From Gammaproteobacteria bacterium (lineage in GTDB: Bacteria > Pseudomonadota > Gammaproteobacteria > GCA-001735895), in NCBI GenBank assembly GCA_024638385.1, contig JAHEKJ010000004.1, positions 34,966 through 72,847 on the forward strand: 37,882 nt of DNA, given 5' to 3'. Position 1 is the first letter of the stretch; the number at the start of each line of letters is the position of its first letter. A program made the position numbers and the translations under genes. Below the pieces are notes generated by a model. It was not told the origin of the DNA. It did no database searches and saw nothing but the letters and a program-made list of their open reading frames with translations. Shown in pieces: positions 1,960 through 31,722 of this stretch.

Positions 1960-2661
1960 TTACCGCGTTCCCAGGTAGGCTCGCAGCGAAGCATGCTCGC
2001 GGTCGTCGAGCAGTTCGCGGGTCGACGCGAGGCGCTCGACGCGGCCCCGCTCGATAAACGCGCAGCGCGCCGATACCAGCAGCGCGTCGCGCGGCTGATG
2101 GCTTACCAGCAGCGCCGCCATTGCGCGCTCGCGCACCAGCCCGGCGACGAGTTCGAGCAATTCCTCGCGCTGCGCCGGCCCGAGCGCGGCGAAGGCTTCG
2201 TCGAGCAGCAGCACCTTGCGCTCGCGCACGAGGACTCGCGCCAGCGCCGCGCGTTGCCGCTGGCCGCCGGAAACCTCGCCGGGCCGGCGCCGCTCGAGGC
2301 CGTCGAGCCCGACGCGGGCGAAGGCCGCATTAACGGCATCGGTTTGCGCTTCGTCCAGCGCCAGCGACGGGTCGATGCCGAGGGCGACGTTGGTAAACAG
2401 GTCGAGGTGCGGAAACAGGTTGTGCTGCTGGAACACGATCGTGACGGGTCGCCGCGCCGGCGGCAGCGCGTCGATCGCATCGCCGTCGACCCGGATACTC
2501 CCCGCGCTCGGCTCGAGGAAGCCGGCGACCAGGTGCAGCAGCGTCGACTTGCCGGCGCCGCTCGGACCGATCAACGACAGCACCTCGCCGGCGGCGACGT
2601 CGAGATCGAAGCGCATCGGCTCACCGCCATAGTCGAATTCGAGATCGTCGATTTCAAGCAT
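1960..2661 (-). CDS. thiQ: thiamine ABC transporter, ATP-binding protein ThiQ
   Basis: A 233-residue ABC ATPase that powers thiamine/TPP import through ThiP. Walker A is G-P-S-G-A-G-K-S-T (32-40), the Q-loop is F-Q-Q-H-N-L-F (around 76), the signature is V-S-G-G-Q-R-Q-R, and Walker B is V-L-L-L-D-E-A-F with the switch His in V-S-H-Q. The length fits ThiQ (about 230 residues). The ATG at 2661 overlaps the thiP stop by 8 bp; an in-frame GTG at 2673 would add four residues and cannot be excluded. The gene lies between thiP and the kinase gene in one transcription unit, which separates ThiQ from generic spermidine- or iron-type ATPases. Confidence 0.92.
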   Translation of the reverse strand: MLEIDDLEFDYGGEPMRFDLDVAAGEVLSLIGPSGAGKSTLLHLVAGFLEPSAGSIRVDGDAIDALPPARRPVTIVFQQHNLFPHLDLFTNVALGIDPSLALDEAQTDAVNAAFARVGLDGLERRRPGEVSGGQRQRAALARVLVRERKVLLLDEAFAALGPAQREELLELVAGLVRERAMAALLVSHQPRDALLVSARCAFIERGRVERLASTRELLDDREHASLRAYLGTR

Positions 2662-4219
2662 CGCGGCGCCCACCGAGGCCGCGTTCGAGCAACCAGAAAA
2701 GCAGCAGGCACAGCGACAGCAGCACCGCCGCGGTGACCGCGGCTTCGCCGACGCGATAGGCGCCGAGTTGCTGGTAGAGCAACAGCGGCAGCGTCGTCGT
2801 CTGCGGCGTGCCGAACAGCGCGATCACGCCGAGGTCGCCGAGCGCGAGCGCGGCGACCAGCGCCGCCGACAGGCCGAAAGCGCGCCGCAGCAGCGGCCAG
2901 TCGACGCACCGCCAGCGGTGCCAGCCGGCGAGACCCAGGCTCGCGCACAGCAGATCGTGGCGCGCGCGGTGCTGACGCATCGCCGGCCCCAGCGTGCGAA
3001 TCACGAACGGCAGGCCCATCAGCGTGTTGATCCCGATCACGATCGGGAAAACCCAGTTGAAGACGTCGACATGCGGTGACAATAACACGAACAGGCCGGT
3101 GCCGAGCACCAGCGGCGGCACCACGTAGATGATCGATGCGGCGGTCTCGATACCGCGCGCGCGGCGCGCCTGCCCGCGGCGCGCGAGGTCGCTGCTGGTG
3201 CGCAGCAGCGCGTATCCGGCGAGCGTCGCGAGCGCCGCCGCGGACAGCCCGATCGCGAGCGAAAAGAACACCGCGCGCCACAGCGCCGGGTTCGCGAGCA
3301 CCGCCGCGACGGGTCCGCGGGCGGCGTCGAGCAACAACGACGCGAGCGGCAGCGCGACGTAGACGCCGGCGAGCGCGACCGGCAACAACCACCAGCGGCT
3401 CGCCCGTGGAAGCACCGGCGCGGCATGGGTTGCCAATCCGGGCTCGACGTCGGGCAATCTTTGCAGGCGCAGCGTGAAAGCGGCGACCAGCGCGCACAGG
3501 CCGAGCTGCAACAGCGCCAGCACGACCGCGCGCAGCGGGGCAAAATCGAATCGCAACGACTGGTAGATCGCAACCTCGAGCGTCGTGCTGCGCGGACCGC
3601 CGCCGAGCGTCAGGACCACGGCGAAGCTCGTCAGGCAAAGCATGAACACGAGCAGCAACACGCCGGGCAAGCCTTCGCGCAGCGCCGGCCACTCGAGGTG
3701 GCGAAACCGGTGCCAGTCGCCGAAGCCGAGCTGTTCGCCGAGTTGCCAGTGATGTTGCGGGATCGATTCCCACAGCGGCAACAGCAGGCGCACCGCCAGC
3801 GGCAGGTTGAAGAAGACATGCGCGATGAGGATGCCGTTGAGGCCGTACAGCGATCGGCCGAGCGGCAGCCAGCCGTCGCTGCCGTAGACCGAGACCACGC
3901 CGAGCACGACGACGATCGACGGCACCACCAGCGGCACGCCGAACAGGCGCAGCAACTGCTCGCGTAACGGGAAATCCCGGTGGTAGGCGAAGGCGCGGGC
4001 GATCGGTATTGCCGGCAAAACCGCGAGCAGTGTCGACAGGCCGGCCTGGTAAACACTGAACCAGAACGCGTTGCGAATATAAGCGCTGCGCCAGAAGGCC
4101 CAGCTCGATGCCCCGGCTTCGGTATCGGCGCCGAGTCCGAGCAGGCCGGCGAGCGGCGCGCCGACGGCGAGCGCGAGCAGCGCGAGCACCGGATAGGCGC
4201 TGCGAGCCCGCGGGATCAA
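2654..4219 (-). CDS. thiP: thiamine ABC transporter, permease ThiP
   Basis: A 521-residue inner-membrane protein with two fused permease halves, as in the ThiP/FbpB group (E. coli ThiP is about 536 residues). There are about twelve hydrophobic segments, and each half has an EAA-type cytoplasmic loop: L-G-F-G-D-W-H-R-F-R-H near residue 165 and L-G-L-A-G-W-H-R-W-R near 430. These loops contact ThiQ. The proposed start is TTG at 4219, 13 bp after the thiB stop; no ATG or GTG gives a better N-terminus ahead of the first membrane helix, and the ribosome-binding site is weak, which suggests coupling to thiB translation. Confidence 0.92.
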   Translation of the reverse strand: MIPRARSAYPVLALLALAVGAPLAGLLGLGADTEAGASSWAFWRSAYIRNAFWFSVYQAGLSTLLAVLPAIPIARAFAYHRDFPLREQLLRLFGVPLVVPSIVVVLGVVSVYGSDGWLPLGRSLYGLNGILIAHVFFNLPLAVRLLLPLWESIPQHHWQLGEQLGFGDWHRFRHLEWPALREGLPGVLLLVFMLCLTSFAVVLTLGGGPRSTTLEVAIYQSLRFDFAPLRAVVLALLQLGLCALVAAFTLRLQRLPDVEPGLATHAAPVLPRASRWWLLPVALAGVYVALPLASLLLDAARGPVAAVLANPALWRAVFFSLAIGLSAAALATLAGYALLRTSSDLARRGQARRARGIETAASIIYVVPPLVLGTGLFVLLSPHVDVFNWVFPIVIGINTLMGLPFVIRTLGPAMRQHRARHDLLCASLGLAGWHRWRCVDWPLLRRAFGLSAALVAALALGDLGVIALFGTPQTTTLPLLLYQQLGAYRVGEAAVTAAVLLSLCLLLFWLLERGLGGRRDA

Positions 4220-4232
4220 GCCCGGCCGCCGG

Positions 4233-5243
4233 TCAGCGTGACATGACTTCGAGCCATTCGTCGATCCAGCCCTGGCGCTGCGCCGCGACGATGTCGTCGT
4301 CGAACCTGAGCGCCGGCGTCGGGTCTATCAGCTGGTCGAACTCCGGCGGTAGTTGCGCGCGCGGCAGCGTCGCGGGATACATCCAGTTGGTCGTCGGAAT
4401 GACGCGTTGAAAAGCCTCGCTCAGCATGAACTCGAGAAACTCACGCGCCAGCGCCTGCCGATCGCTGCCGGCGACGATGCCGGCAACCTCGATCTGCTGG
4501 TAATGCCCTTCGGCGAAGCGGGCCGCGGCGAAGCGCGAATCCTGCTCGGCGATCAGGTGATAGGCCGGCGACGTCGAGTAGCTCAATACCATGTCGGCCT
4601 CGCCCTTGAGGAACAGGCCATAGGCTTCGCTCCAGCCCTTGCTGACGGTGACGACGCGCGGCGCGAGCTTCGCCCAGGCTTCGCGCGCGCGATCGCCGTA
4701 AACCTTTTTGACCCACAGCAGCAGACCGAGGCCGGGCGTCGACGTGCGCGGATCCTGCAGCAACAGCGTCGGGCCCTGCGGGTTCTCGACCAGCTGCGCG
4801 AGGCTCGTCGGCGGCCGCTCGATTCGCTCGCGGTTGTAGACGAAGGCGAAGTAGCCATAGTCGTAGGGCAGAAACAATTCGTCAGTCCACGGCTGCGGCA
4901 GCGCGGAGCTTTTCAGCTCGAGGTCATGCGGCACGAACAGGCCCGTTGCGCGCGCCACGGCCGTGAGGCTGGTGTCGATGCCGAGCAGCAGGTCGGCGCG
5001 GGTGTTGCGGCCCTCGAGACGCAACCGGTTCAGCATCGAGACCCCGTCTTCGAGACCCACGAACTCGACATCGCAGTCGCAGCGCGCCTCGAACGCGGGC
5101 TCGATTTGCGGACCCGGTCCCCACTCGCTGACGAATGAATCGTAGGTGTAGACCACGAGCCGGGGCTTGCCGGCGCCACCGGCAATTCCGGTGACGCCCA
5201 GCGCGATCACCGCGGCGACCAGAATTCTGAACATGCTCGGCAT
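4233..5243 (-). CDS. thiB: periplasmic thiamine-binding protein ThiB
   Basis: A 336-residue solute-binding protein with an N-terminal signal peptide (hydrophobic residues about 5-22, ending G-I-A-G-G-A-G). The mature N-terminus L-V-V-Y-T-Y-D-S-F and W-G-P-G-P are hallmarks of ThiB, and S-Y-S-T-S-P-A-Y-H (around 220) matches the ligand-binding region. It captures thiamine, TMP or TPP in the periplasm and delivers it to ThiPQ. ATG 5243 follows a GGGGAT ribosome-binding site at 5250-5255; a second in-frame ATG at 5234 is possible but too close to that site. It is the first gene of the operon behind a TPP riboswitch. Confidence 0.95.
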   Translation of the reverse strand: MPSMFRILVAAVIALGVTGIAGGAGKPRLVVYTYDSFVSEWGPGPQIEPAFEARCDCDVEFVGLEDGVSMLNRLRLEGRNTRADLLLGIDTSLTAVARATGLFVPHDLELKSSALPQPWTDELFLPYDYGYFAFVYNRERIERPPTSLAQLVENPQGPTLLLQDPRTSTPGLGLLLWVKKVYGDRAREAWAKLAPRVVTVSKGWSEAYGLFLKGEADMVLSYSTSPAYHLIAEQDSRFAAARFAEGHYQQIEVAGIVAGSDRQALAREFLEFMLSEAFQRVIPTTNWMYPATLPRAQLPPEFDQLIDPTPALRFDDDIVAAQRQGWIDEWLEVMSR

Positions 5244-5249
5244 ACGACT

Positions 5250-5389
5250 ATCCCCGTGGCGGACTCGGCGGCGACGGGAAGGGAAAATCCGGGGATTCGC
5301 TCACATCCCTACGCCAGCATTAACTGGATCAGGTTCATCGGGTTGGCGTTCGCGGACGCCTCTCAGCAAGCTGCACCCCGTTGAGGAAG
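5250..5389 (-). promoter_or_regulatory. TPP (THI-box) riboswitch with ribosome-binding-site switch
   Basis: The minus strand reads the universal THI element. The 5' part ACGGGGTGC (about 5374-5382) is followed by GCTGAGAGGC (5360-5369), which contains the pyrimidine-sensing CTGAGA. Then come the 3' part GAACCTGATCCAGTTAATGC (5318-5337) and GGCGTAGGGA (5306-5315). Downstream, AUCCCCG (RNA of 5290-5296) is perfectly complementary to CGGGGAU, the thiB ribosome-binding site at 5250-5256. The same AUCCC can alternatively pair with GGGAU (5305-5309) in the 3' strand of P1. The reading is a translational OFF switch: TPP binding fixes P1, frees AUCCCCG and masks the start site. The aptamer itself is about 5302-5389. 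Confidence 0.95.
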
Positions 5390-5393
5390 AGCG

Positions 5394-27788: not shown

Positions 27789-30500
27789 ATGAATCAGGAA
27801 CAACAAAAAAAACTCGTCCTCGTCGACGGCTCCTCGTACCTGTTTCGCGCGTTCTACGCGCGCACCGGCGCCGAGTTGTCGAGTCCGACCGGATTTCCGA
27901 CGCAGGCGATTTACATCGTCATCAACATGCTGCGCAAGCTGATCAAGGACGAGGCGCCGGACGGGATCGCGGTCGTGTTCGATGCCAGCGGCAAGACTTT
28001 TCGTGACGACCTCTACCCCGAATACAAGGCGAACCGGGAAACCATGCCGGACGACTTGCGCAAGCAGATCGAGCCGCTGCACGAAATTATTCGCGCGATG
28101 GGTTTGCCCCTGCTGTGCGTCGACGGCGTCGAGGCCGACGACGTCATCGGCACGCTCGCGCGCGAGGCCACGACGCGAGGCTACGAGGTCCTGATTTCGA
28201 CATCGGACAAGGACATGGCGCAGTTGGTCAACGACAAGGTGACGCTGGTCGACACGATGAACAACAAGGTTCTCGACGAGGACGGCGTGGTCGACAAATT
28301 CCAGGTCCGAGCCGACCAGATCGTCGACTACCTCGCGCTGATGGGTGACAGTTCGGACAATATACCGGGCGTGCCCAAGGTCGGCCCGAAAACGGCGGCG
28401 AAGTGGATCGCCGAATACGGCAGCCTCGACGACGTCATCGCCCACGCCGACGAGATTCCGGGCAAGGTCGGCGAGAACCTGCGCGCGTCGCTCGATTTTC
28501 TGCCGTTGTCCCACGAACTCGCAACGATCAAGCTCGATTGCGATACCGGCATCGATGTCGACGAACTCGAACCACAACCGGGGGACGCCGCGGCGCTGGC
28601 CAACTATTACCGCGAGTACGGCTTCAACCGCTGGTACGAAGAGGTCGCCAGCGAGGCCGGCATCGAAGCGTCGTCGCCGAAACCCGACCCCGATGCCGAG
28701 TACGAGTGCGTGCTGACCGAGGACGCGTTCGAGGCCTGGGTCGCGCGCCTGGAGCGGTCGCCGCAGTTCGCGATCGATACCGAAACCACGAGCATCGACT
28801 ACATGCGCGCCGAGCTGGTCGGCATATCGCTTTGCGTCGAAGTCGGCCGAGCCTGTTACATCCCGCTCGCGCATCGCTACGAAGGCGCGCCGAAACAGCT
28901 CGACAAGCGCGCCGTGCTGGCGCGGCTGAAGCCGATCCTGGAAGATCCCGCGAAAGCCAAGATCGGGCAAAACCTGAAGTACGACGCGCATATCCTGGTC
29001 GGCGAAGAGATACGCCTGCGTGGCATCGCGCACGATACGATGCTCGAATCCTACGTGCTGAACTCGACCGCGAGCCGCCACAACATGGACGCGTTGGCGA
29101 AGTACTACCTCGGCTACGACACGATTCACTACGAAGACATCGCCGGGCGCGGCGCCAAGCAGAAGACTTTCGACCAGATCGAGCTCGATGTGGCCAGCGA
29201 CTACGCCGCCGAGGACGCCGACATCACGCTGCGCCTGCACGAGGCCCTGTCGGCCGAGCTCGGCAAGGTCGATCGGCTGCTGGCGGTTTACACCGACATC
29301 GAAATGCCGCTGCTCGACGTGCTGCTGGAGGTCGAGCGCAACGGCGTGCTGATCGACGAAAAGATGCTCAAGCGCCAGGGCGGCGAGATCGACAAGCAGC
29401 GCGGCAAGATCGAGGAGAAAATCTATGCCGAGGCCGGACAGGTATTCAACATCGGTTCGCCGAAGCAGATCCAGGAGATTCTGTTCGACAAGCTCGCGCT
29501 GCCGGTGCTGCGCAAGACGCCCGGCGGCCAGCCGTCGACCGCCGAAGACGTGCTCGAGGAGCTCGCCGCCGAATACGAGATCCCGAAGCTCATTCTCGAG
29601 CATCGTAGCCTGACCAAGCTGCTGTCGACCTACATCGACAAGTTACCGCAGGAAATCAATCCGGCTACCGGTCGCGTGCACACGAATTACCAGCAGGCGG
29701 TGGCGTCGACCGGCCGGCTGTCGTCGACCTCGCCGAACCTGCAAAACATTCCGGTGCGCACGGCCGAGGGCCGGCGTATCCGCGAAGCCTTCGTCGCGCC
29801 GCCCGGGCACCGCATCCTGGCGCTCGACTACTCGCAGATCGAACTGCGAATCATGGCGCACCTGTCGGGCGACGACAGCCTGCGCGAAGCCTTCGCCCGC
29901 GGTCTCGACGTGCACCGTGCGACCGCGGCCGAGGTGTTCGGCGCCGATCTCGATGCGGTGTCTTCCGAGCAGCGCCGCGCCGCCAAGGCGATCAACTTCG
30001 GCCTGATCTACGGCATGTCGGCATTCGGTCTCGGCCGCCAGCTCGGCATCCCGCGCGGCGAGGCGCAGCAATATGTCGACACCTATTTCGAGCGCTATCC
30101 GGGCGTCAAGCGCTACATGGAGGAGACCAAGGAGCGCGCGCGCGAGCAGGGCTACGTCGAGACCGTGTTCGGCCGCCGGCTCTACCTGCCGGATATCAAG
30201 CACTCGAACGTCAACGTTCGCCAGTACGCCGAGCGCACCGCGATCAACGCGCCGATGCAGGGCACCGCCGCCGATATCATCAAGCGCGCGATGATTCGCG
30301 TGCAGCAATGGATCGGCGAGCAAGCCCCGAATTGCCGCATGATCATGCAGGTCCACGACGAACTCGTATTCGAGATCGCCAGCGCCGAGGTCGACGCCTG
30401 CCGCGAGGCAATCGCGGCGCGGATGACCGGCGCCGCGGATCTGTCGGTCAGCCTCGTCGTCGACGCCGGCGTCGGCGACAACTGGAACGAGGCGCACTGA
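27789..30500 (+). CDS. polA: DNA polymerase I
   Basis: A 903-residue polymerase (E. coli 928). The 5'-3' exonuclease (1-about 290) has L-V-D-G-S-S-Y-L-F-R-A and D-G-V-E-A-D-D-V-I-G. The 3'-5' exonuclease has an intact D-T-E-T (330-333), so proofreading is expected. The polymerase domain has D-Y-S-Q-I-E-L-R, R-R-A-A-K-A-I-N-F-G-L-I-Y-G and Q-V-H-D-E-L-V-F-E. It acts in Okazaki fragment processing and repair. The small RNA candidate follows about 235 bp downstream. Confidence 0.98.
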   Translation: MNQEQQKKLVLVDGSSYLFRAFYARTGAELSSPTGFPTQAIYIVINMLRKLIKDEAPDGIAVVFDASGKTFRDDLYPEYKANRETMPDDLRKQIEPLHEIIRAMGLPLLCVDGVEADDVIGTLAREATTRGYEVLISTSDKDMAQLVNDKVTLVDTMNNKVLDEDGVVDKFQVRADQIVDYLALMGDSSDNIPGVPKVGPKTAAKWIAEYGSLDDVIAHADEIPGKVGENLRASLDFLPLSHELATIKLDCDTGIDVDELEPQPGDAAALANYYREYGFNRWYEEVASEAGIEASSPKPDPDAEYECVLTEDAFEAWVARLERSPQFAIDTETTSIDYMRAELVGISLCVEVGRACYIPLAHRYEGAPKQLDKRAVLARLKPILEDPAKAKIGQNLKYDAHILVGEEIRLRGIAHDTMLESYVLNSTASRHNMDALAKYYLGYDTIHYEDIAGRGAKQKTFDQIELDVASDYAAEDADITLRLHEALSAELGKVDRLLAVYTDIEMPLLDVLLEVERNGVLIDEKMLKRQGGEIDKQRGKIEEKIYAEAGQVFNIGSPKQIQEILFDKLALPVLRKTPGGQPSTAEDVLEELAAEYEIPKLILEHRSLTKLLSTYIDKLPQEINPATGRVHTNYQQAVASTGRLSSTSPNLQNIPVRTAEGRRIREAFVAPPGHRILALDYSQIELRIMAHLSGDDSLREAFARGLDVHRATAAEVFGADLDAVSSEQRRAAKAINFGLIYGMSAFGLGRQLGIPRGEAQQYVDTYFERYPGVKRYMEETKERAREQGYVETVFGRRLYLPDIKHSNVNVRQYAERTAINAPMQGTAADIIKRAMIRVQQWIGEQAPNCRMIMQVHDELVFEIASAEVDACREAIAARMTGAADLSVSLVVDAGVGDNWNEAH

Positions 30501-30735
30501 GCCACGCACCGGACCGGCGCCCAATCTGCGCTAGTCGAGCTAAAGATTTTGCGCAATCGGCCGATAGCTGCCAAAGGCAGGGCCCGGCGCGGGCACGAGG
30601 CTCCGCGGTTGACTCCGGACCGCGGAACTACCCGCAAAGCGATAGGGGTTGAATTTTACTGAACCGATCCCATCTGCGATGCGTATTGGAAGGTAATTTT
30701 GACGGAACTAAAAGGTTGTGCCGAATGTCCATGAA
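30501..30735. other. polA downstream region
   Basis: No coding frame looks real here. A 7-bp stem CCGCGGT (30603-30609) / ACCGCGG (30619-30625) with a 9-base loop follows polA but has no T-run, so at best it is a 3'-end stabilising or Rho-dependent element. The last 40 bp hold the putative small RNA promoter. Confidence 0.5.
30704..30733 (+). promoter_or_regulatory. possible sigmaE/AlgU-type promoter of the small RNA
   Basis: GGAACTA (30704-30710) followed after 16 bp by GTCCAT (30727-30732) resembles the envelope-stress sigma factor pattern (GGAACTT, 15-16 bp, GTCNAA). An overlapping TTGACG (30699-30704) could be a sigma70 -35, but no good -10 lies 16-18 bp from it. Confidence 0.4.
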
Positions 30736-30854
30736 TTAGCGCTATAGCCCAGCGCTATGTCCGTTCTCCCTCCTATGAGCGGACAAGGGTCCGGAAACCC
30801 CATCCGGATCCATACGTTTGTCCCTGGCAGTGTTTACTGCCAGGGCTTTTTTTT
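30736..30854 (+). ncRNA. candidate small regulatory RNA in the Spot 42/ErsA position
   Basis: About 119 nt fold into a chain of hairpins. AGCGCT (30738-30743) pairs with AGCGCT (30751-30756). TGTCCG (30758-30763) pairs with CGGACA (30780-30785), exposing a C-rich loop TTCTCCCTCCTATGAG. GGGTCCGG (30787-30794) pairs with CCGGATCC (30804-30811, one G-U). A perfect terminator ends it. The place between polA and engB is that of Spot 42 in enterics and ErsA in Pseudomonas. The loop CTCCCTCC is complementary to ribosome-binding sites (GGAGG), as in Hfq-type RNAs. The 5' end is estimated. No sequence identity to Spot 42 is evident. Confidence 0.75.
30822..30854 (+). terminator. intrinsic terminator of the small RNA
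   Basis: CCCTGGCAGT (30822-30831) and ACTGCCAGGG (30836-30845) form a perfect 10-bp stem with a 4-base GTTT loop, followed by C and eight T (30847-30854). This is the clearest intrinsic terminator in the window. Confidence 0.95.
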
Positions 30855-30944
30855 GCCCGCAGGCCTGCTGCGCGGCGCGTGCGCGGCGTTGGATTTCTAC
30901 ACCAAACGCTTGCGTGGGTTGGCGCCGGCCGCCGGGATTTGCCG

Positions 30945-31035
30945 GTCATTGCGAGGAGGCGCAGCCGACGAAGCAACCTCCCAAATCCTGCCCGATCTCC
31001 GGTGATTGCTTCGCTGCTTCGCAGCTCGCAATGAC
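30945..31035. repeat. complete GTCATTGCGAG...CTCGCAATGAC inverted-repeat element
   Basis: GTCATTGCGAG (30945-30955) and CTCGCAATGAC (31025-31035) are perfect inverted ends. The inner arms GACGAAGCAA and TTGCTTCGCTGC also pair imperfectly. Half copies lie at 3-36 and 127-163. It looks like a miniature palindromic intergenic element without coding capacity. Confidence 0.8.
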
Positions 31036-31051
31036 GGCGAGTATCGGGATA

Positions 31052-31117
31052 TTCGGGCCAGGGCAAAATTTATTCGAAAGTACTTTTATCAGGTTAAGTT
31101 TTGCGCTGACCCGATTT
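31052..31117. repeat. second copy of the CCCTGG/GGGTCAG repeat (see 198-281)
   Basis: In reverse orientation this reads ATCGGGTCAG, CGCAAA, then AAATTTTGCCCTGG, matching the interior of the element at 198-281 with substitutions and a small length difference. It again lies next to a CTCGCAATGAC element and close to the 3' end of a minus-strand gene (engB). Confidence 0.6.
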
Positions 31118-31131
31118 TACGGTCATTCGGA

Positions 31132-31722
31132 CTATTCGGGTTCGAGCCAGGCGCGGCAGCGCTGTTCGAGCTGATCGAGGCCCTGGCGATTGACGGTCGA
31201 TAGCGCCGACACGCCGTGCGCGGGGCCGCCGAGGCTCGACTCGGCCGCCGTAACCGCGCGCGCGACCTGGTTGCGCGACAGCTTGTCCGCCTTGGTCAGC
31301 AGAATGTGTAGCGGCAACCGATCGCGCACCATCTCGATCAGCGCCTGATCGAGCGCGCCGACGCCGCGGCGAATATCGACGACGATGACGAGCCCGCGCA
31401 GCGCCTGCCGCTCGAGCAGGAAGCCCGACAGCACCCGGTCCCAGTGCTGACGCATGCGTTGCGGGACCCTGGCATAGCCGTAGCCGGGCAGGTCGACGAG
31501 GCGGCGGGTCGCATCGAGCGCGAAGAAGTTGATCAGCTGCGTGCGCCCGGGCGTCTTGCTCGTCTTGCACAGGCCTTTTTGCCGCACCAGGCAATTGATC
31601 GCGCTGGACTTGCCGGCGTTCGAGCGCCCGGCAAACGCGACCTCGGCGCCGCTGTCGGGCGGCAGCTGCGACAGCTCGTAGGCGCTGGTCAGGAAACGGG
31701 CTTCGGAAAATACTGGGCTCAT
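31132..31722 (-). CDS. engB: ribosome biogenesis GTP-binding protein EngB (YihA/YsxC)
   Basis: A 196-residue TRAFAC GTPase: G1 G-R-S-N-A-G-K-S-S (32-40), switch T-P-G-R-T-Q, G3 D-L-P-G-Y-G-Y-A (77-84) and G4 T-K-A-D-K. It is needed for 50S subunit assembly. ATG 31722 gives the usual short N-terminus. It is divergent from cytochrome c4, with 90 bp between them. Confidence 0.96.
   Translation of the reverse strand: MSPVFSEARFLTSAYELSQLPPDSGAEVAFAGRSNAGKSSAINCLVRQKGLCKTSKTPGRTQLINFFALDATRRLVDLPGYGYARVPQRMRQHWDRVLSGFLLERQALRGLVIVVDIRRGVGALDQALIEMVRDRLPLHILLTKADKLSRNQVARAVTAAESSLGGPAHGVSALSTVNRQGLDQLEQRCRAWLEPE

Follow-up and report, generated by a model that had tools for sequence, protein, structure and literature searches.

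The window analysed here, a stretch of 37,882 nucleotides from a gammaproteobacterial contig, holds a gap of 631 nt (30501–31131) between two convergent genes: a plus-strand reading frame that we take by recognition to be polA, with its stop at 30500, and engB on the minus strand, with its 3' end at 31132. A predicted small-RNA gene lies within this gap, on the polA strand (Table 1). An earlier note, made from the letters of the DNA alone, had described a structured small RNA at this place, and that observation of a structured RNA beside polA is confirmed as real: the predicted fold consists of three hairpins followed by a perfect terminator, and the segment 30734–30854 has a folding energy of -58.3 kcal/mol, where shuffled sequences average -30.8 (z -7.97) and none of 200 reaches the same stability. 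The longer segment 30704–30860 folds with a z of -5.6. The note had assigned all of 30704–30854 to the RNA, which holds for about 30734–30854; the stretch 30704–30733 is probably promoter, with the RNA starting near 30734–30737.

Table 1. Genes, promoter elements and parts of the small RNA (positions are those of the window)
Feature	Position	Strand	Basis
polA (DNA polymerase I), upstream neighbour	27789..30500	+	ORF; E. coli polA locus aligns (tblastn)
-35 element GGAACT, σE/AlgU-type promoter	30704..30709	+	GAACT invariant in 19/19 aligned genus loci
-10 element GTCCA	30727..30731	+	GTC invariant in 19/19 aligned genus loci
Small RNA, about 118–121 nt	30734..30854	+	5' end inferred from promoter spacing; fold, covariation
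Hairpin 1, loop 30744–30750 AUAGCCC	30737..30757	+	Fold; helix of 6 pairs, 98.5% of cells paired (A3)
Hairpin 2, loop 30767–30776 UCCCUCCUAU	30758..30785	+	Genus-invariant (19 sequences); 98.4% of cells paired (A3)
CCUCCU inside loop 2, probable seed for pairing with Shine-Dalgarno sites	30769..30774	+	Sequence; pairing inferred
Hairpin 3, loop 30796–30802 AACCCCA	30787..30811	+	Fold; 94.1% of cells paired (A3)
Intrinsic terminator, 10-bp stem 30822–30845, tail C then T8 (30847–30854)	30822..30854	+	98.2% of cells paired (A3)
engB/yihA GTPase, downstream convergent neighbour	31132..31722	-	ORF; E. coli yihA aligns (tblastn)

In the predicted fold hairpin 2 follows directly on hairpin 1. The second hairpin displays the exposed C-rich loop that the note had pointed to, with a predicted length of 10 nt rather than the 16 given there, and runs of C also occupy the loops of hairpins 1 and 3. 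The CCUCCU of loop 2 is, we take it, the core of the anti-Shine-Dalgarno sequence of 16S rRNA. The terminator-like site is one of two in the gap when both strands are counted, with 0.8 expected. Between the small-RNA terminator and engB there is also a perfect 11-nt inverted repeat, GTCATTGCGAG...CTCGCAATGAC, with arms 69 nt apart (window 30945–31035); similar repeat matches near 24–37 and 149–162 of the window suggest that it is possibly a dispersed repeat element.

By blastn the small RNA is found in 21 of 39 genomes, namely its own and 20 of the 23 others of the genus, and in 0 of 15 from other genera; the genus genomes G010, G014 and G015 gave no blastn match. Several of these 21 loci end at contig ends; polA and engB are both present in 18, polA only in L020, and engB only in L014 and L021. 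In an alignment of 19 of them (the truncated L020 and L021 being omitted), the full GGAACT is kept in 16, the flanking sequence diverges while promoter elements and RNA persist, and hairpin 2 with its loop shows zero variation. A covariance model built from these 19 loci, R1, matches the window, itself part of the training set, at 30737–30852 with 125.2 bits, and it matches 37 of the 41 genomes searched in the order, the exceptions being G010, G015, G022 and G055.

Beyond the order, R1 matches 36 of 369 genomes of the class, in 29 of 271 genera; a minus-strand match at L015 (E 0.0042) was dropped as spurious and the threshold raised. When 58 matches (57 distinct) were aligned to R1, in the alignment termed A3, two-sided changes appeared in 31 of the 32 base pairs, so that the stems whose conservation among relatives the earlier note had proposed to check are conserved by compensating change; hairpin 2 too covaries once one leaves the genus. 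In A3, 96.9% of cells are paired, a figure favoured by the fitting of the alignment to the structure, against at most 43.2% in a control in which partners were slid by 1–3 columns. A second covariance model, R2, trained on the 58 A3 matches, finds the family in 163 of 369 class genomes and 120 of 271 genera, training genomes included, and has no match in the other 206; because R2 was partly trained on R1 matches and run on the same class sample, the 163 are not independent of the 36. An alignment of 101 matches from further regions (A5, which shares 13 identical RNAs with A3) has two-sided changes in 32 of 32 pairs and 94.1% of cells paired. Loop 2 contains CCC in 57 of 57 A3 rows and in 97 of 101 rows of the partly model-selected A5, and loop 3 contains CCCC in 55 of 57 and 85 of 101. 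In a sample of the phylum, R2 matches 15 of 398 genomes, 14 of them in the class and a single, marginal one (G406) outside it, and a search of a phage collection gave no match. A close relative of the window's RNA is that of the Olavius algarvensis Gamma 3 endosymbiont (L207; EngB 70% identical, R2 124.9 bits), the remaining nearest named loci being records of uncultured gammaproteobacteria.

The position of the gene is conserved as well, and here the evidence comes from genes that lie outside both models. Among the 150 R2 matches listed, 96 come from genomes for which a polA is also listed (polA positions likewise being 150 entries of a longer list); 57 of these follow the polA 3' end at no more than 1.5 kb, with a median distance of 162 bp, and 39 do not. 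For the 93 listed matches with no polA nearby, 87 regions were read together with flanks of 2.2 kb, or less at contig ends, the remaining 6 adjoining a region read: polA was present in 23, engB in 48, either in 55 and neither in 32. Altogether 112 of the 144 R2 matches examined adjoin polA and/or engB. Judged from these sequence models, the polA–engB gap would thus appear to be occupied by this small-RNA family through much of the class.

Some loci hold more than one copy. Tandem arrays of four R2 matches each occur at or near polA–engB in G210 (L179), G317 (L186) and G302 (contig C3, 217561–218299); arrays of two to four copies also include L156, L154 and L175, and two copies are present in several genomes, including Ectothiorhodospira mobilis DSM 4180 (L251). 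Copies within arrays differ, which may mean divided targets. At one locus (L055, in G171), a c-di-GMP-I riboswitch (2036–2120, minus strand, 77.9 bits) lies between the small RNA and polA.

Promoters of the σE/AlgU type follow a recognizable consensus, with a GAACT-like -35 and a GTC-containing -10 element, and we based the promoter call on it, searching the 70 nt before each RNA for GAAC[TC]N15-19GTC. The earlier note had suggested a σE-like promoter upstream, and the pattern is borne out well beyond the elements invariant in the genus (Table 1): it precedes 92 of 144 distinct RNAs, in 88 of those 92 at -30 to -37, whereas windows shifted upstream contain it in 0, 0, 5, 2 and 2 of 141–144 cases and shuffled sequences in 0.8 of 144. 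Outside the genus it precedes 69 of 120 distinct RNAs (shifted controls 0, 0, 5, 2 and 1 of 118–120), leaving 51 of the 120 without it. The window's genome encodes RpoE, at 315.5 bits against a cut-off of 236, as well as Hfq, at 101.6 bits against 27.

The promoter also recurs where R2 finds nothing. polA and engB converge in 48 of 80 named loci, and the pattern is present in 17 of the 26 of these with an R2 match (7 of the 26 being the window's own group, L202–L208) and in 17 of the 22 without one; over the 23,376 nt of the convergent named loci there are 44 forward matches to the pattern against 1 on the other strand. In 40 R2-negative genomes with a listed polA, a subset of such genomes chosen by eye from the polA list and with 5 of the 40 stretches shortened by contig ends, the pattern lies within 700 nt of polA in 16 on the forward strand (two of which, L328 and L344, look like chance occurrences in coding sequence) and in 3 on the reverse; where engB is within 1.5 kb, it is found in 12 of 14. 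Many of the RNAs behind these promoters, judged by eye and unscored, likewise have a terminator and hairpins whose loops are of the CUCCC or UUCCC type. Because RNAs with the pattern and C-rich loops recur in R2-negative loci, R2 probably undercounts, and loci that keep polA next to engB seem commonly to combine a σE-type promoter with a C-rich-loop RNA. Four R2-negative named loci (L239, L248, L260 and L276) have more than one σE-like match between the two genes, and the RNAs behind the two such promoters of L239 are near-repeats of each other.

How does this family relate to RNAs already described? At gathering score Rfam recognizes a single element in the window, a TPP riboswitch (5288–5390, minus strand, 67.4 bits, threshold 54.3), and so no named Rfam family applies to the small RNA. 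That riboswitch lies ahead of the minus-strand reading frames 4233–5243 and 2654–4219, which by eye we presume to be thiB and thiP of a thiamine transporter. Below threshold, the window's RNA scores 29.2 bits with anti-hemB (threshold 49.5), 21.2 with ncS025 (46) and 13.6 with Spot_42 (80), so that the nearest curated family by model score is anti-hemB and not Spot 42; the earlier note had named neither anti-hemB nor sX13. Direct membership in anti-hemB (RF02837) was nevertheless rejected, since the 29.2 bits are exceeded by a second weak match elsewhere in the same genome (30.5 bits; L317, 965–1031, minus strand, contig C149 of G000), which is perhaps chance or another C-rich-loop RNA. At E ≤ 0.001, anti-hemB matches 89 of 185 genomes and passes its threshold in 9; weak matches of this kind are non-specific, because 3 of 14 control genomes match too.

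The connection to anti-hemB runs instead through intermediates: genus-trained R1 finds L052 and L055 at 65.5 and 61.3 bits, and both pass the anti-hemB threshold, at 51.5 and 50.7 bits. The strong anti-hemB loci L308, L309, L310, L316 and L272 (71–84 bits) lie beside engB and score 47.6, 47.0, 42.4, 35.9 and 56.0 bits, respectively, with R2. L078, the strongest anti-hemB match of the class sample (65.7 bits), scores 31.8 bits with R2 and adjoins neither polA nor engB. The exact σE pattern was not found before the six strong anti-hemB loci tested, nor before the sX13 loci or Spot 42 (spf); a GAACTT element does remain upstream of L308 and L272. Like the window's RNA, anti-hemB (also ncS04, or Burkholderia RNA 7) has a hairpin with a CCUCCCU-type loop, a further hairpin and a terminator, but its Rfam model lacks hairpin 1. 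For ncS04, the portion of the published account available gives a 105-nt transcript, states Hfq binding, and has a qPCR table in which expression stays unchanged in all seven conditions (PMC5688073). At L190 a tandem pair of anti-hemB-type RNAs that pass the threshold (1998–2269, minus strand, and 3786–4144, plus strand) lies beside tmRNA rather than polA or engB and is a relocated copy of the locus. Among 40 R2-match regions scanned with Rfam, 3 hold anti-hemB matches (4 in total) and 0 hold sX13, the other 37 being missed at gathering score.

The link to sX13 is thinner than that to anti-hemB, even as sX13 offers the closest functional parallel. Direct membership in sX13 (RF02232), a family of the Xanthomonadaceae, was rejected: its model, with a threshold of 50 bits, matches neither the polA–engB gap of the window at E ≤ 10 nor the window's genome (G000). 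That threshold is passed in 2 of 185 genomes (L194 and L195); the next best, G210, reaches 48.3 bits, with 46.4 for R2 and 35.9 for anti-hemB. In the 10 genomes with an sX13 match, it coincides with an R2 match in G210, G122, G177 and G061, while G035 and G204 hold true sX13; on true sX13 loci R2 scores 26.4 and 19.7 bits, and other places in those genomes score about equally. As far as the available part of its description goes, sX13, too, lies downstream of polA and has three stems and C-rich loops; its repression requires these C-rich motifs and G-rich motifs in the targets and is Hfq-independent, and compensatory mutants failed to restore regulation (PMC3771888). True sX13 loci differ from the window's RNA in having no σE pattern. 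The same source, to the extent available, gives C-rich apical motifs for alphaproteobacterial ar7 and ar14 and says that ar7 adjoins polA (PMC3771888); with the ar14 model, one class member reaches 31.3 bits (threshold 58.8).

ErsA of Pseudomonas aeruginosa was compared by its published description alone, no ErsA family being among the Rfam matches. In the excerpts available, it resembles the window's RNA in lying between polA and engB, in having a promoter of the sigma22 (AlgT/U) type, and in its 132 nt and three stem-loops (PMC8575079, PMC7565897); it is described there as strictly sigma22-dependent (PMC7565897). It differs, by the same excerpts, in that its pairing, with Hfq, uses domain II, a U-rich and unstructured stretch separating SL1 from SL2 that the window's RNA lacks. 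The literature searched, in which few subscription journals were covered, yielded no paper uniting ErsA and sX13, or these polA–engB RNAs, as one family, and a search for small RNAs 'downstream of polA' returned the sX13 paper only (PMC3771888); in that literature, the wide polA–engB family is not unified.

Taking structure, covariation, locus, promoter pattern and loop conservation as the sequences give them, and inferring from there transcription, σE control, Hfq binding and loop-to-ribosome-binding-site pairing, we think it rather likely that this is a free-standing gene for a σE-induced, trans-acting small RNA of a polA–engB family, acting through the pairing of its C-rich loops to Shine-Dalgarno or G-rich sites; the interpretation offered in the earlier note is to that extent supported. 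Envelope stress would fire the RpoE (σE/AlgU) promoter, and a transcript of ~120 nt would stop at its own terminator, where the U-tail may load Hfq, a step made uncertain by the Hfq independence of sX13. Three rigid hairpins would then display the C-rich loops, chiefly UCCCUCCUAU with its CCUCCU, and by analogy with the known RNAs loops 2 and 3 would cover G-rich sites close to start codons, Shine-Dalgarno sequences among them, lowering translation of a set of mRNAs. Counting against this reading are the 206 class genomes with no R2 match, the RNAs outside the genus that lack the promoter pattern and its absence from the sX13, Spot 42 and strong anti-hemB loci, the failure of compensatory sX13 mutants to restore regulation, and the unchanged expression of ncS04. 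The target prediction with the loop as seed that the earlier note had proposed was less rewarding: a simple pattern, an ATG preceded by the exact 9-nt complement of loop 2, is absent from the window's genome (0 matches). Across 24 genomes the complement with a start codon behind it occurs 20 times, in 11 of them, while the reversed control occurs 10 times, and among these 20 there is no convincing conserved target. An orthologous pair, L285 and L286, was dropped as candidates, the ATG being apparently internal to what we take by eye to be an HtrA-type protease.

This lack of a specific target is what one would expect if the RNA worked by titration, with the CCUCCU loop or the U-tail soaking up Shine-Dalgarno-bearing complexes or Hfq; the placing of the Shine-Dalgarno-complementary hexamer in a loop, and strong loop conservation with no longer conserved seed, fit such a role equally well. 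We nonetheless regard it as unlikely, for the family retains three C-rich loops that differ from one another, more than a simple sponge would require, and sX13, of similar anatomy, represses defined reporters in the part of the study available (PMC3771888). A reading in which there is no separate gene, but only a terminator and a processed polA 3' UTR acting at the DNA or 3'UTR level, draws on the position of the RNA 204–236 nt downstream of polA on the same strand and on the 52 of 57 polA-near R2 matches that share the polA strand. It is made very improbable by the RNA's own conserved promoter, by the 5 of 57 matches on the opposite strand, and by those matches that remain next to engB although polA now lies elsewhere. 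Least credible of all is that the locus encodes a small protein, as spf does in the annotated spfP (SpfP in Spot 42): an 82-codon frame does run from the ATG at 30757 to 31005, but it was rejected as coding since it is stopped or lacks its start in 11 of 19 genus sequences, and the changes follow base pairing.

The comparison with Spot 42 (spf, RF00021) needs separate treatment, as the gene occupies the very place of Spot 42 and ErsA, just as the earlier note had stated: E. coli has polA-spf-yihA, and ErsA is published from the same position. The ErsA–Spot 42 synteny has reportedly been remarked on before. Were the window's RNA a diverged Spot 42, it would be the same gene, Hfq-dependent and tuned by CRP and carbon rather than by envelope stress. 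Place, length and terminator agree, and in 6 kb of E. coli spf is the sole R2 match, at 21.1 bits, csrC in the same stretch giving none. That match, however, rests mainly on the terminator, and we did not accept it as proof of homology. Spot 42 itself has no C-rich loops, no σE-like pattern of the kind that precedes the genus RNAs, and a regulation by carbon, and the Spot_42 score given above, far below its gathering score, upholds the note's impression that the sequences differ. We accordingly give the diverged Spot 42 very little credence, and favour a σE-induced RNA with C-rich pairing loops.

A broader evolutionary reading may be offered more tentatively, as one that we find quite possible while stopping short of favouring it: that a single σE-driven, C-rich-loop small-RNA gene has occupied the polA–engB gap since early Gammaproteobacteria (in the GTDB sense, with the betas), that it gave rise locally to anti-hemB, sX13 and ErsA, and that Spot 42 branched off late, losing the σE promoter and the C-rich loops. 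If right, this would join several separately studied RNAs in one evolutionary story and supply, outside the enterobacteria, a post-transcriptional arm common to the envelope-stress response, and annotation could name a small RNA that Rfam thresholds miss in 37 of 40 match regions. The class-wide counts are given here, and model, promoter and locus are now usable for tests. On this broader reading, much of the class would respond to envelope stress by slowing translation with an RNA that pairs to Shine-Dalgarno sites.
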